A DNA stretch of 64,000 nt from Phialocephala subalpina. Its lineage: Eukaryota > Ascomycota > Leotiomycetes > Helotiales > Mollisiaceae. The notes under the pieces are model-generated. The model was not told where the DNA came from. It searched no databases and saw only the letters and a list, made by a program, of their open reading frames with translations. The position numbers and the translations under genes were made by a program. The stretch spans positions 2,264,243-2,328,242 of the forward strand of contig FJOG01000002.1 of assembly GCA_900073065.1 (NCBI GenBank), in the 5' to 3' direction. Shown piece by piece: positions 1,580 through 31,399 of this stretch (the first letter of the stretch is position 1; each line of letters opens with the position of its first letter).

Positions 1580-3837
1580 TTATTTTCGTGCCCACAACAC
1601 AAGCCAGCCAAGAAGGCGATAGCCTAGAACAATGCCCAACAGGATACCAACCCATTTGCCAGTATTTCCGGTGTGGTAACCGTACTGGTCCACTACAAGA
1701 AATTAGTAAGTGGTTTTAAAGGATGCTGAGGAGTCGAGGAGTCAAGGAGCCGAGCGCTTCCGGAGCTCGACTCCCTACAGAATGGTAGAATCAGGGCGGG
1801 ATTTATACATACAAACGGCTTGTCCAGGAATCAAGCACTGAGATGACAGGTCAGTCTGGAACATACATTCGCACCTATTGCCGCACGAATACTCTCTATA
1901 TGCAAACTCATTGACCATCATACCCTGGAAGACGTAGGTTTGATAGTCAATGTAGTGGAAGACGTATCGGTAAAAGACGTTGAGGAGTTTTGGAGATACC
2001 ATGAATCCATCGACTGACATCCACAAACCATTGGCAAATGCAGTGAGCGCAAGAGAGACCACAAATATGGGGAACAAGGAGCTCACGAGCACAACCAGAG
2101 ATTCGGCGGCAACCAGGTCTAGGAACAGCCACATGACCCAGGTAAAGAAGGCACCGGCTGTGGGGCGGAAGTTGGATAGCCAATATGCGACCACACTGAA
2201 GAGGAAGCTGATCAGGACTATTTATACGTTAGCAGTGGCCCACGGTGTCTAATCAGAATCAACACTTACAGAGATACGGTAGGCCAATGAGGAAGTTTGC
2301 GATCATGAAAGCAGTTGGGCCGTACAAGCCGTTGTGACGTTCCTTGATGAAGGTTGCTCGGTCTTCGAGGAACGAAGGAACGTAAGCGACTGCCATAAAT
2401 GACATGAAAGCGGAGCCGAAGAAGATTGCGTTTGTGACAGGTTGAATGTCGGCCTGATCAGCCTTGAGACGAAGCCAGACAGTTCCCATCATAATTGCAA
2501 GACCGAGATACATGGCGATGCGAATACCGTAGGCGACGATGTCCCGGTAACTCTTGATGAATGATCTGTGCACCAACGACATGACCACAACTGGCAGATT
2601 GCTCCGGGATGGCTTGGCATCGACCAAAGGCTCTGCAGGAATAGAACCCACAAGATTCGAGAGCTCGATAGCACTGCCAGAGCCAGCCCATGCCTTTTGC
2701 ATCTCTTGCAGGCGTTCAACGGCGGATTCTTGATGGGTGGCAAAGTCGATGTTCATCAACTCAAGAAGAAACTCGGCAGGGTTGGTATGATTTGGTATAG
2801 CGAAGCCCATGCTTTCAAAGTGTGGTGCAACTCCATCGACCGAGCCGAAGTAGTGTGGCTTGCCAGCGGAAAGGAGAAGGAGCTTGTCGAACATTTGGAA
2901 GGTGGAAGATGAGGGCTGGTGAATGCTGGCAATGACAATCAACTGCGAAGGGGTTAGTTGCCGGTGTTGGCAAATGGTAGCTTTGCGAATGCACTTACGT
3001 TATTTCGCCTAGCAACTTCCTTGATGAAAGAGATAACTTCAAAGCTTGCAGCAGAGTCTAGACCACTGGTAGGCTCATCCAAGAATAGCAGCTTAGGAGC
3101 GGTGATGAGTTGGCTGGCAACACTGACGCGACGCTTCTGACCACCGCTGATCCCCTTTCGAATAGGCGTTCCGATGATAGAATGGGCTTGGTTTCTCAAT
3201 CCAAAGGAGTCAAGCAGTCCATCGATTCTGCGAATGCGCTCGGTCTTGCTCAAGGCACTGCGGCGGTTAGAACGCTTTCGAGCTATAGAGTGAATGTCGA
3301 CTTACTTCTTGTGTGCAAGTCGAGCTGCAAAGTGCATAGTCTCGCGGACGGTGAGAGATCCAATGAGAGCATCTTCCTGTTCAACATAGCTGCTCATGCG
3401 TCGAAAAGCACCGGTGGATGGGCTAGTGCCATTGACCAAAGTGGTGCCTTCGACCTTAGCTCCGGTTGCGGCGTCTCGATGAGCAAGAACGTTCAGAAGA
3501 GTTGTCTTTCCGCAGCCACTTGGTCCCCTGTCATTGGGATCAGTTCTCAATGTATCTGTGAGGATCGCATGAGAGATTCTTACATCAGAGCCAGAATCTC
3601 GCCGGCCTCGACAATGCCATCGATGTCTTGAAGGATGGCCTTTGGTTGCTTTGTCTTGTGATCCTTGACAACGACAGAGATGCCAGACCAGGAGTAGTTA
3701 CGAACAGTGTCGTTCAGGAGATGGGCATTGTCGAGAGTTTTCTGCTCGATGTCGACCGTGAACGCATTTTGGGGAAGGACATTGTAGATTTGATCTGGCT
3801 CACGAGCAGTACGCGCACCGGACGTGGTGTCGCTCAT
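1580..3837 (-). CDS. Half-size ABCG (White-type) ABC transporter
   Basis: Six exons on the minus strand: 3584-3837, 3306-3527, 2999-3257, 2270-2942, 1813-2217 and 1580-1692, giving 641 aa. It has one nucleotide-binding domain followed by one membrane domain, the reverse order typical of ABCG half transporters, which dimerise. Walker A is GPSGCGKTT at residues 86-94, the signature ISGGQ at 195-199, Walker B LLFLDEP at 215-221 and the H-loop His at 253. Hydrophobic segments fill residues from about 370 to 600, and the last exon adds a final membrane segment (WVGILLGIVLGYRLLGWLVL). Introns 1-4 are 48-56 nt. Intron 5 (1693-1812) is 120 nt and nearly identical to an intron in the glucosyltransferase gene at 29959. 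The substrate is unknown; the family moves lipids, sterols, pigments or drugs. It lies next to a Zn2Cys6 regulator and diverges from an SDR. Confidence 0.93.
1693..1812 (-). mobile_element. Introner-like intron, copy A (in the ABC transporter gene)
   Basis: A 120-nt intron, donor GTATGT and acceptor TTGTAG, branch-like CTTACTAAT near the 3' end. It splits a codon after its first base (V-T|TG-D). Its first ~50 nt and last ~20 nt match the intron at 29959-30070 almost base for base, and it carries the same GGAG(T)CGAGC...GCTCGGCTCC hairpin. Copy A has extra GACTCCTC-like repeats after the hairpin. Transposition-like origin is inferred from two copies only. Confidence 0.7.
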
Positions 3838-27052: not shown

Positions 27053-30000
27053 ATGATGGCCACTGACTTTCCAGCCAGCAGTCCCAGCGCCACCACCCCT
27101 TCGAAGCATGCGACCTTTGAAGATGTGCTGGACTCCGACTCGACGCTTGGGAAAGTTGTAAATGGGAACAGCAGCGAGCCAAGGCCAATTTCTGTAGATG
27201 GTGTACGACCCGTTGTCTCGAGACAATGGCAGACGGAGAGACCGCAACCTACGACTAAGACATCATGGCTGGGAAACCCGCGATTGACGAGAAACGCTAC
27301 GAATGTATCGGCGCTGAACGAAGCTATTTGGAATAGCCCAAGCAATGATCACGATTCTGCGACTACGAGTTCCTCGGATGAAGATGAGGATGATACGGAA
27401 CATATTAAGAGGCGGAGAGAGAGAGGGAGGAAACATAGTGGTGGCTATTCGAGGTTTAATGTTGGGAATGAGAATTTCAATACTAGGGGGAGGGTGAGGA
27501 AGGATGGCAGACTCACGATCAGTGTCAATGAGACCGCGAATAGAGGATATCTGGCGAAGGCGTTGGGTGCTACGTTTGGCCATTTTGCTCCGTCTGCGGC
27601 GGATGACATGAATGCCACTGCCCCACAGCATGGTCGAGAAAGCATCTCGAGAGCGTCGTCCGAGGCTACGATTACCTCGGATATTCCTCGACCTTCGTTG
27701 AATATTGTGGTTATGGTAATTGGGAGTCGTGGAGATATTCAGCCGTTTCTGAAGCTGGGGAAGAATCTAAAGGAATACGGACATAGGGTACGAATCGCTA
27801 CGCATCCTGCTTTCAAGGACTTCGTGCAGAAGGATTCGGGACTCGAGTTCTTCTCTGTTGGTGGTGATCCTTCTGAACTAATGGCATTCATGGTTAAGAA
27901 CCCAGGAATGATTCCAACCATGGACACCTTGAAGAAAGGGGAAGTTGGCCGCCGACGAGATCAGATGGCAGAGATGTTCGAAGGTTTCTGGAGAGCTTGT
28001 ATCAATGCTACGGACGACGAGAAGGATGAGGCGAATCTCAAGATGATGGGCCAGAAGGCTCCGTTCATTGCGGATGCTATCATTGCCAACCCGCCTTCTT
28101 TTGCACATATTCATTGTGCAGAGCGACTGGGTATTCCGCTGCATTTGATGTTTACGTTTCCGTATACACCAACGCAGGCCTTCCCTCATCCTTTGGCGAA
28201 CGTTAAGAAGTCAAATGTTGATCCGGGATATGCGAACTTCATGTCATATCCTCTTGTCGAGATGATGACATGGCAGGGGTAAGTTCTATCACCTACCTTA
28301 TTGCCAATCACTAACAAAAGTAGACTTGGTGACTTGATCAACAACTTTCGAGTCAAGACCTTAGGTCTAGAACCTGTATCGACATTATGGGCACCAGGTC
28401 AGCTCTATCGCCTCAAAGTCCCGTACACTTACCTATGGTCACCTGGTCTTATCCCCAAGCCGAAAGACTGGGGACCAGAAATCGACATTGCTGGCTTCGT
28501 GTTCCTCGACCTCGCCTCTTCGTTCGAGCCACCACAGGACCTGGTGAAATTCCTGGATGCTGGAGAGCTACCCGTCTACATCGGATTCGGTTCGATTGTT
28601 GTCGACGACCCGGATAAGTTTACAAAGATGATTTTCGAAGCTGTCGAGAAAGCCGGTGTACGAGCACTTGTGTCAAAAGGCTGGGGCGGCCTCGGAGGCG
28701 ACAGCACCCCTGACAACATCTTCATGCTGGAGAACACTCCTCACGATTGGCTATTTCCAAAAGTTTCCGCAGTCGTTCATCACGGTGGTGCTGGAACAAC
28801 GGCAATTGGATTGAAGTGCGGGAAGCCTACCATGATTGTTCCATTCTTCGGAGATCAACAATTCTGGGGAGCTATGATTGGAGAGTCGGGAGCTGGTACT
28901 AAGCCTGTTCCCTACAAGAACCTGACAGCAGATAAGCTGGCTGAGGGTATCAAGCAATGCTTGACAGACGAAGCACGAAAGGGCGCCGAGAAGATCGCAA
29001 AAGATATCGAAGCTGAAGGAGATGGCGCAAAGAACGCAGTCATTTCCTTCCATCGGAGCCTTGTGCTTCGAGGTCAGAATTCTATGCGTTGCTCTATCTT
29101 GGAAGATCGAGTGGCAGTATGGACCCTCAAAAATACCAGTCTACGATTAAGTGCCCTAGCTGCTGAGTTTCTTGTTGAGAGGGAAAAGCTTACATGGAAG
29201 CAATTACGACTGATACGACATAATGAGTGGAACGACTTTGAAGGTCCGGGCGAGCCAATCTCCGGCGGAGGACTTGCAATCATGGGAACCGTCACTGGAA
29301 TCGCGACTGGCATTGGAAGCGTGCCTTTTAGGATCGCAAAGAGTTCGAAGAGACGTGCTAGACATGAAGAGAAGAAACGGAAGTCCCAAGAAGCCAGCCG
29401 GAGAAAGTTTAGTGAGAAGTGGAGCGGAAAAAAGTCCCATGGAAACATACCCACTGGAAAACCTGTCACTGGAAGCAACCAGAAGCATAGTACTGAATCT
29501 CAGGGCAAAATTCGCGGTACGCCGAACGAGACAATGGGACAGTATGCAGAGGATAAATTAGCCAATATCGCGCACACACGTTCACGAGGCGAAGGCAGCG
29601 CTGCCGGCCATCCTGGCATGGGTAAGCACTCTGTGCAAGGAGAGCCTTTACAGCAGAAGCACGACGCAAACGATGAACAGGATCACCAAAACCGTGGCGA
29701 CGACGAAGAATCGGAATTATCTGATGATCCTGAGGACAATGCGGCGGAGGAAGTGGCACATGATATTGGATCAGGAGTTGGCAAAACAGCCGAGTCGATA
29801 GCTCGAGCTCCTATGGACCTTTCCCTAGCTATCGCTCAAGGCTTTCACAATGCTCCTCGACTTTATGGCGACACTACCGTACGACGCCCAACTCGAATCA
29901 CCGGTATCAAATCTGGACTGAAAGCTGCTGGCGAGGAGTTTACATTCGGTATTTACGAGTATGTATAAATCCCGCCCTGATTCTACCACTTCGTAGGGAG

Positions 30001-30854
30001 TCGAGCTCCCGAAGAGCTCGGCTCCTCGATTCCTTAATATCATTTGAAGCCACTTACTAACTTCTTGTAGTGGCTTCACTGGCCTAGTTGTTCAACCATA
30101 TACCGGTGCTCGTGAAAACGGCGTATTCGGCTTTGTCAAAGGTGTAGGCATGGGTCTCACGGGCTTCGTTCTCAAGGATCTAGCGGCTATCTTTGGTCCA
30201 TTTGGATACACTTTCAAGGTATGACTTCCCCGAGCACAATTTCCCCATTGGGCACTTTTCATGAGTTCTACTTGCTGCAAACTCAGAAGCAGGCATTTGA
30301 CTCCCGAATAACTCCCGATATGTTTTAAAGAAGTATGCTGACTTGGGGATGTCACCCTCAAGGGTGTTCACAAGGAACTGCTGAAGCACAAGCAACCAAC
30401 GAACTTCATCAGAAAAGCACGAATTTTGGAAGGCCAGCGCGATCTTCGAGGGCTTGATGAAAAAGAGCAAGAGCAGGCAATCGATGCCGTTAACCACGGC
30501 TGGTCGGTAGTACAACAAATCTGGGCCATCATGGAAGAGAAGCAAGATCAGAGTTTAAGGGGGAAACTCCACGTGATGAGAGAACGAAAGACATGGAGAG
30601 CAAACGGTGCCTTCAAGAACGTTGCGATGGCGGAGAAAGCATTAGAAGCTAGACGTAAAGGCGAGAGTCTAGATGGCGTCTTTTCTCAACAGCGAGGCGA
30701 ACTGGCCACGGCTCAGAGACCAAGGAAGAATGTGGTGAAGGATTTGCAGCATGGGAATGGAGATGATGTGGAGGCTGACAAGCAAGTGGTGCAGAAGAAT
30801 GGGAAGGCAAGGCCGCCAAGGCCGCCAACTAAGGAGACGCCATCCATTGCGTGA
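27053..30854 (+). CDS. GT28/UGT80-type sterol glucosyltransferase-like protein
   Basis: Four exons, 27053-28278, 28324-29958, 30071-30218 and 30363-30854, giving 1,166 aa. A disordered acidic leader (~200 aa) precedes the GT28 N-terminal Rossmann domain (VVMVIGSRGDIQPFLKLGK, from about residue 216). The C-terminal donor-binding domain has the UDP-sugar motif HHGGAGTTAIGLKCGKPT at about 561, followed by PFFGDQQFWG. This matches UDP-glucose:sterol glucosyltransferases. Unlike Atg26, no GRAM or PH domain precedes the catalytic part. The ~500-residue C-terminal extension carries Lys/Arg-rich linkers, a glycine-rich part (YTGARENGVFGFVKGVGMG) and a helix-rich tail. Intron 2 (29959-30070) is an introner-like copy; intron 3 is 144 nt. 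Glucosylation of ergosterol is inferred from family, not shown. Confidence 0.88.
29959..30070 (+). mobile_element. Introner-like intron, copy B (in the glucosyltransferase-like gene)
   Basis: A 112-nt intron, donor GTATGT, acceptor TTGTAG, branch-like CTTACTAAC near the 3' end. It splits an Asp codon (GA|T). Nearly all of the first 50 and last 20 bases match the ABC-gene intron at 1693-1812 (opposite genomic strand, same transcriptional sense). It contains an 11-bp stem, GAGTCGAGCTC with GAGCTCGGCTC, around a CCGAA loop. The two host genes are unrelated, so common descent of the genes cannot explain the match. Confidence 0.72.
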
Positions 30855-31399
30855 TGATTCTGGCTCCTGCTACGAAGGTGGTGATTGAGGGAGAAGTTCC
30901 TTCATAGATCTTCGAGTGGTTTCGATTTGAGCGATGGAGTTTGGAGTGGGCATTGCACTTTCCACATAGCACTTCAAGCGGCATAGCAGATGTAGATCTT
31001 TGTGCAGAACTCTAATGTAAGACTAATCTGAAATGACTGCACTTTCTGGCCTTGGAGGGAGGTTTCGAAACATCACTAAGCCCGCTTCTGAGTCGAAACA
31101 GTTCTACCATTCAAACATCTTGCTCAAAAGAGCTCATCAAACCTTCTGGCAGCATGTAATTCATATGTTAATGCCTTAGATAAATCTTGATGCCTTGCGA
31201 TTTAGTGATGATGTCGTGCTTCTCGGCCGTGGCGCAGAGACAATAATTGGTCAGCCGCCATCTCCACTCACTCACTCTACATTTTGACGGCTTCATGCCT
31301 CTTCATCATGGCTGGCGATTGCTCAAGGCAAGTTCTCTGTCTTTCTCACCAAGACTTATGAAGCAGTATTTCCAAGCTTTGAGTCAACCTTAAGCAACC
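30855..31399. other. Intergenic between the glucosyltransferase-like and OPT transporter genes
   Basis: 3' flank of one gene and promoter of the next. A short upstream frame (ATG at 31308, stop by 31361) lies in the presumed OPT leader. No other gene seen. Confidence 0.55.

Follow-up and report, generated by a model that had tools for sequence, protein, structure and literature searches.

The window, by which we mean the whole 64,000-nt stretch of DNA that was analysed from Phialocephala subalpina, a fungus of conifer roots, carries a sterol glucosyltransferase gene in which two neighbouring introns belong to repeated families (F1 and F2 in the following), and a putative ABCG transporter gene on the opposite strand that holds a second F1 copy. 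The features are:

27056-30854 (+): sterol glucosyltransferase gene; exons 27056-28278, 28324-29958, 30071-30218 and 30363-30854, the stop codon being the last three bases
29959-30070 (+): copy of the introner-like family F1, 112 nt, in the sterol glucosyltransferase gene, phase 2, at GA/TGGC (genome search, alignment, deposited protein)
29959-29964 (+): 5' splice site GTATGT of the 112-nt F1 copy, invariant or almost so across 62 aligned copies
29996-30026 (+): modelled hairpin core with a 13-bp stem in the 112-nt F1 copy (RNAfold)
30020-30035 (+): 8-nt tandem repeat of two units (GGCTCCTC, GATTCCTT) in the 112-nt F1 copy (alignment of copies)
30055-30061 (+): TACTAAC in the 112-nt F1 copy, which we take to be a branch-site-like motif (sequence)
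30071-30073 (+): TGG opening the downstream exon, the preferred F1 target (site counts)
30219-30362 (+): copy of the introner-like family F2, 144 nt, the next intron of the sterol glucosyltransferase gene, phase 0, at AAG/GGT (genome search, homologues)
1693-1812 (-): copy of F1, 120 nt, in the putative ABCG transporter gene, phase 1, at T/TGG (alignment)

The spliced sterol glucosyltransferase was compared with P. subalpina protein P0121 over 551 residues (560-1110), a part that contains both junctions, and the two are identical there; the deposited protein model removes the F1 and the F2 intron as spliced. Since the deposited protein is one residue longer than our reading, the gene may start one codon earlier than 27056. 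Elsewhere in the window, all 1061 residues of the long Sfi1 exon match a deposited P. subalpina protein, barring a 17-residue stretch that stems from unspliced reading.

The original prediction singled out the introns at 29959-30070 and 1693-1812 as near-identical introns in unrelated genes, and both sit where it had placed them. Pairwise alignment bears out the identities claimed for their ends (48 of the first 51 bases and 19 of the last 20), and the flanking exons, compared by eye over 40 bases per side, have no evident likeness. For the middle of the introns, the term "near-identical" is slightly overstated: 99 of 112 aligned bases are identical, and most of the 13 mismatches fall there, together with the one 8-base gap that reflects the difference of an 8-nt unit. 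The two introns were also said to be about twice the usual length, which is true against the class of short introns (43-88 nt as predicted here) but not against the mean of 80.2 nt given in the available part of the P. subalpina genome paper (PMC5148876). That the F1 intron of the sterol glucosyltransferase gene has an intron of another repeated family, F2, as its neighbour had gone unremarked, as had the preference for certain insertion sites.

F1 is a large family of similar introns

The 68-Mb P. subalpina genome contains at least 94 copies of F1, a lower bound that is the union of similarity and pattern searches, with each copy read individually. When the 112-nt intron served as query, the best 40 of 91 candidates were scored, and 39 of these align from base 1 to base 112 and one from base 8. 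The first 19 bases occur 83 times in the genome at up to two mismatches and the first 30 bases 69 times at up to three, and the count is 67 for the last 33 bases, 16 for a variant ending and 90 for a looser pattern of the 3' end; the reversed controls of all these patterns gave no occurrence. With 69 occurrences against none for the reversed pattern, the likeness of the two window introns is not due to chance. Many genomic matches spanning exact splice-to-splice intervals had been proposed as a mark of an introner family, and this is what the 94 or more copies provide: far more than two genome-wide, ending at splice sites, they support the introner-like reading.

All 94 copies start with GT, and 93 end with AG, the remaining one (L096) ending with AA; three copies (L079, L086 and L098) were re-anchored at the 5' end by eye before counting. 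Pairwise identity averages 0.85, with a nearest-neighbour median of 0.94 and a best pair at 0.99, and 4 of the 94 copies have a neighbour at 0.98 or above. This spread suggests a rather young family that may no longer be on the move. Copy length is divisible by 8 in 69 of 94 cases, falling into classes of 104, 112, 120, 128 and 136 nt, most of which exist because the number of 8-nt units varies in one arm of the hairpin. A genome-wide search for a long-hairpin variant led to three places, all already among the known copies, and a search of positions 29000-31000 (one F1 and one F2 copy) against Rfam at E<=1 gave no match, whether to a group II RNA fold or to any other family. Two F1-related loci, L085 and L098, have GT in place of TG after the intron, and L098 is shortened to 56 nt.

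F1 copies are predicted to be spliced

Removal of the F1 introns from RNA by splicing is predicted from reading frames, protein domains and the deposited protein model. Measured over 200 nt on either side, the mean open frame is 338 nt upon exact excision, 238 nt when unspliced and 266-275 nt when the 3' end of the excised stretch is moved by one or two bases either way, so that reading frames are best restored when the excision is exact. An internal stop interrupts the chosen frame in all 94 copies. For 80 of the 94 copies, the spliced frame in sense orientation alone was scanned with Pfam; a match was obtained in 45 and none in 35, and the match spans the junction in 41 of the 45. Among these 41, L029, L040, L073 and L085 cross the junction solely via matches below the curated cut-off, and in L079 no single stretch passes on its own. 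Matches stop short of the junction in L015, L063, L050 and L055. The host families include transporters, P450, tannase, Hsp70, chaperonin, alpha-N-acetylglucosaminidase (NAGLU) and the molybdopterin domain of xanthine dehydrogenase. F1 reads in sense in all 45 copies whose gene was recognised by Pfam among the 80 sense frames. Codon usage, a weak test, backs the sense strand in 77 of 94 copies versus 1716 of 2539 random positions, and the antisense frame is longer than the sense frame in 13 of 94.

The folding of F1, computed for F1 copies alone, has a mean z of -2.17 (n=94), with z below -2 in 54 of 94 copies. The 112-nt window copy (29959-30070) folds at -29.2 kcal/mol with a z of -3.28 in RNAfold, and the other window copy folds no better than its shuffles (z -1.09). 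RNAalifold returned no consensus base pairs from a MAFFT alignment of F1. Given this result and the z of -1.09, a role of the F1 hairpin is unproven.

Insertion looks seamless and may reflect intron gain

Where it can be checked cleanly, F1 insertion looks seamless, in that exon bases appear to be neither added nor removed. The alignment of 14 homologues is free of gaps at either window junction, and all 14 have the same flanking residues (D/G at F1 and K/G at F2). In the gene for CCT-beta, F1 splits an ATG codon (A/TG), and the two best solved chains, 4v81_B and 3iyg_B, retain its methionine; the contexts in Hsp70 and xanthine dehydrogenase are unbroken, neither of these two sites being TG. 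The NAGLU site is mixed, with tryptophan kept in 4xwh_A, phenylalanine in 2vc9_A and a one-residue gap just upstream in both alignments. The conserved residues and codons at the clean sites indicate that the surrounding bases are older than the intron at several sites. No target duplication around F1 survived multiple testing in 147 offset tests (best p 0.004), and a terminal inverted repeat is absent from F1, with 8 of 25 end positions matching.

An indication of gain comes from paralogues of one gene within the P. subalpina genome, the permease gene at L068. Of its 24 genome matches, 19 run through the F1 insertion point undivided, leaving no room for a 112-nt intron; among these 19, four carry a stop codon, one is longer by about 45 bases and one reaches past the point by just four residues. 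The other five comprise the gene itself (two matches) and three matches that end before the insertion point. With the point crossed in 19 of 24 matches, it is unlikely that F1 introns are ancient shared introns, and a family of just two copies, one of the outcomes that the original prediction had named as speaking against its reading, is not what the genome holds. Another F1 copy, L070 (C63:902120-902254), is located some 0.7 kb upstream of a match to the permease, and its own spliced frame has no Pfam match; a second permease gene may therefore carry F1 at another position.

F1 prefers a short exonic word

TG follows F1 directly in 81 of 94 copies versus 17 of 110 predicted ordinary introns (Fisher p 1e-25), TGG in 56 of 94 versus 9 of 110 (p 1e-15), and A directly precedes F1 in 56 of 94 versus 18 of 110 (p 1e-10). 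T is the next base in 88 of 94 copies, and the full word A/TGG surrounds 30 of 94. The control set consists of 110 ordinary introns predicted in the same DNA by a simple rule, purely rule-based, that allowed 42-90 nt and found 43-88 nt. A weaker word lies upstream: 10 of 94 copies have an ATGC that starts at -6, where chance would give 0.4 at any one position. The phase leans towards 1: of the 80 copies whose frame is open for 60 nt or more to either side, 46 are in phase 1, 22 in phase 0 and 12 in phase 2, and phase 1 occurs in 32 of the 110 controls.

Pairing between intron and exon was considered as a guide for F1, since the most frequent bases from -8 to -2 read GGATGCT, which is complementary to an AGCATCC within the intron. 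However, shuffled introns score equally well in 14.5% of cases (p 0.145), so that this candidate is unproven. For direct repeats the share is 5%. Guidance by pairing is thus unsupported, and an earlier pairing scan of the whole flanks was swamped by TG itself.

The genome holds further repeated intron families

Comparing the masked flanks of F1 copies among themselves turned up further repeated introns, and P. subalpina holds at least four repeated intron families besides F1. Genome searches yielded 33 matches for F2 (counting the query, and many of them partial), 32 for F3 and 41 for F7 from 48 candidates, and for F5 the best 40 of 64 candidates were scored. About 20 copies each of F2, F3, F5 and F7 were examined; the ends of one F3 and three F7 copies were re-anchored, an F3 copy that is partly N was omitted, and F2 was left out of the site counts because its ends vary. 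GT starts and AG ends 158 of the 159 aligned copies of F1, F3, F5 and F7.

The F5 site is CA/TNG, with A before the intron in 21 of 23 copies, C at -2 in 19, T at +1 in 16 and G at +3 in 19, and the F7 site is (A/T)G/G, with G before in 20 of 21 copies and G after in 17. F3 falls into two subfamilies, told apart by one missing intron base: TGG follows F3a in 10 of 11 copies and F3b in 0 of 10, the latter sitting at C/A in 7 of 10. The Fisher p of 3e-5 for F3a against F3b is flattering, because the split was chosen after the pattern had been seen. Site words thus differ by family in F1, F3, F5 and F7, and insertion sites tend toward short words that are family-specific.

By their sequences, the intron families of P. 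subalpina are not all unrelated. F5 carries the same kind of 8-nt unit as F1, its lengths being 131, 139 or 147 nt in 18 of 23 copies; the hairpin cores of F1 and F5 have up to 15 bases in common, and some stretches weakly match both F7 and F2. Within the examined sample there are two more repeated intron-like stretches, F4 (L015, L065 and L071) and F6 (L019 and L024), of which F4 is about 65-77% alike to F7 in short matches. A 3-kb region at L065 holds four repeated-family introns (two F7-like, one F4-like and one F1) at 356-486, 707-857, 1094-1186 and 1501 (oriented), and L140 has two F7 copies in tandem with 49 bases between them. Other repeats were met in the same material. A 172-bp repeat, 79% identical between L041 (103-274) and L067 (1878-2048, both oriented), has the inverted ends ACTACAGGG / CCCTGTAGT, lacks clear intron signals and looks like a miniature transposon. 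At L024 (1913-2414, oriented) a 250-bp unit is duplicated in tandem, with 252 bases at 100% identity.

Discussion

Mobile group II introns, too, insert seamlessly and favour certain bases to either side of the site. F1 shares this with them, but F1 is about 112 nt long and bears spliceosomal signals, and its 112-nt window copy has no Rfam match. Similar in kind are the introner-like elements (ILEs) known from Dothideomycetes, among them Fulvia fulva, Dothistroma and Zymoseptoria, which, as described in the available part of PMC4457414, are near-identical spliceosomal introns in unrelated genes, longer than ordinary ones and present in up to eight families per fungus; the ILE descriptions found there hold no counterpart to the 8-nt length steps of F1. 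The families described here differ from these ILEs in that their host belongs to the Leotiomycetes (Helotiales, Mollisiaceae). Of the families with counted sites, F7 resembles the AG/GY preference of ILEs cited in the accessible text of PMC8469720, whereas F1, F3 and F5 do not. Fungal introners are also reported, in the portions of PMC8469720 and PMC9860276 at hand, to lack target duplications, as F1 does, and a predicted stable structure is described for them as well. The sister stwintrons and cropped introns of Hypoxylaceae and Xylariaceae resemble F1 in being seamlessly inserted, repeated families of an ascomycete that work on the coding strand, but many of them have terminal inverted repeats of 45-55 nt and they occupy seemingly random sites without exon bias (available parts of PMC8469720 and PMC12403724), whereas F1 has no such repeats and a strong exon bias; F3 and F5 do not fit random siting either. 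The DNA-transposon introners of algae and other eukaryotes likewise form repeated intron-creating families with some bias for an insertion motif, theirs being GC-rich, yet in many of them the element is flanked by target duplications or bears terminal inverted repeats, and F1 has neither. The consulted part of PMC9860276, in which families per genome range from one to 43, sets ascomycete introner families apart as outliers without target duplication or terminal inverted repeat, and F1 fits this description.

We consider it probable, if by no means certain, that the F1 introns are introner-like elements, that is, short spliceosomal introns copied to new places, and that this occurs through reinsertion of RNA. 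In such a scenario the intron RNA, once spliced out and perhaps shielded by its hairpin, would serve as the mobile copy. It would re-enter the transcribed strand or a messenger RNA by reversed splicing, and the reinserted intron would then be copied into DNA and fixed, with the sites narrowed by some property of the family itself or of the gene from which it came. Reversed splicing has been proposed for fungal introners by earlier authors, as related in the available parts of PMC8469720 and PMC9860276, and the seamless insertion, exact splice ends and sense orientation of F1 fit this model. However, the spliceosome has no obvious reason to prefer TGG, which counts against the RNA route, and reversed splicing alone leaves the differences between the words of the families unexplained. 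The word could be set by the intron RNA reading the exon, by an enzyme, or by the source gene of each family.

If an enzyme sets the word, the F1-type introns may instead be non-autonomous DNA elements with splice sites at their ends, moved without target duplication by a site-setting enzyme, for example in a rolling-circle, Helitron-like manner, a scenario that we regard as possible but doubtful. Family-specific short targets are usual for transposition enzymes, and here the short targets differ by family and hairpins are present. Helitrons insert between A and T without target duplication and have the ends 5' TC and 3' CTRR. The preference of F1 and F5 for A/T agrees with such insertion, but F7 sits at G/G and F3b at C/A, and F1 begins with GTATG and finishes with GTAG rather than with Helitron ends. 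By its ends, F1 itself does not qualify as a Helitron, although A stands before 56 and T after 88 of the 94 copies, nor does it qualify as a DNA-transposon introner, target duplication and terminal inverted repeat both being absent from F1, the family to which this test was applied. In support of DNA elements, Helitrons do occur among the transposable elements listed in the available text of the genome paper (PMC5148876), and a bias to GC-rich motifs is reported for introner families in general in the accessible part of PMC9860276. Against DNA elements stand the GT start and AG end of 158 of 159 aligned copies, the missing terminal inverted repeat of F1 and the sense orientation of all 45 gene-recognised copies, the last from a scan of sense frames alone.

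An origin in DNA repair, by which an intron would be copied from a source gene into a break together with a bit of flanking exon, so that new sites share the flanking bases, strikes us as improbable. It would account for a motif that lies on both sides of the site and is specific to subfamilies (TGG after F3a in 10 of 11, after F3b in 0 of 10, in a split made post hoc), but repair would have no need to stop at splice sites, where the copies do end, and the conserved codons at the sites point to bases that predate the intron. We give hardly any credence to the idea that these are ancient introns held alike by gene conversion between genes: the mean pairwise identity of 0.85 among F1 copies would agree with it, but the host genes are unrelated and the insertion point in the permease gene is spanned undivided by 19 of its 24 matches.

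Returning to the reinsertion of RNA, it is tempting, although we hold this more specific idea to be rather unlikely, to propose that the intron sequence itself, as RNA and with the spliceosome, picks the exon word for each family or subfamily. Such elements would be guided, programmable-like mobile introns rather than random insertions.

In the open literature searched, we found no report of introners in Phialocephala, Leotiomycetes or Helotiales, although an earlier automatic listing in the supplement of PMC9860276 is possible; the P. subalpina genome paper, in its available part (PMC5148876), gives a size of 69.7 Mb, 2.7 introns per gene and 5.7% transposons and does not mention introners. 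The families of P. subalpina extend introners to the Leotiomycetes. The origin of new spliceosomal introns is an old open question. Since a word common to many insertions limits what kind of enzyme or RNA can have placed them, a genome with at least five families and differing words makes the mechanism testable.
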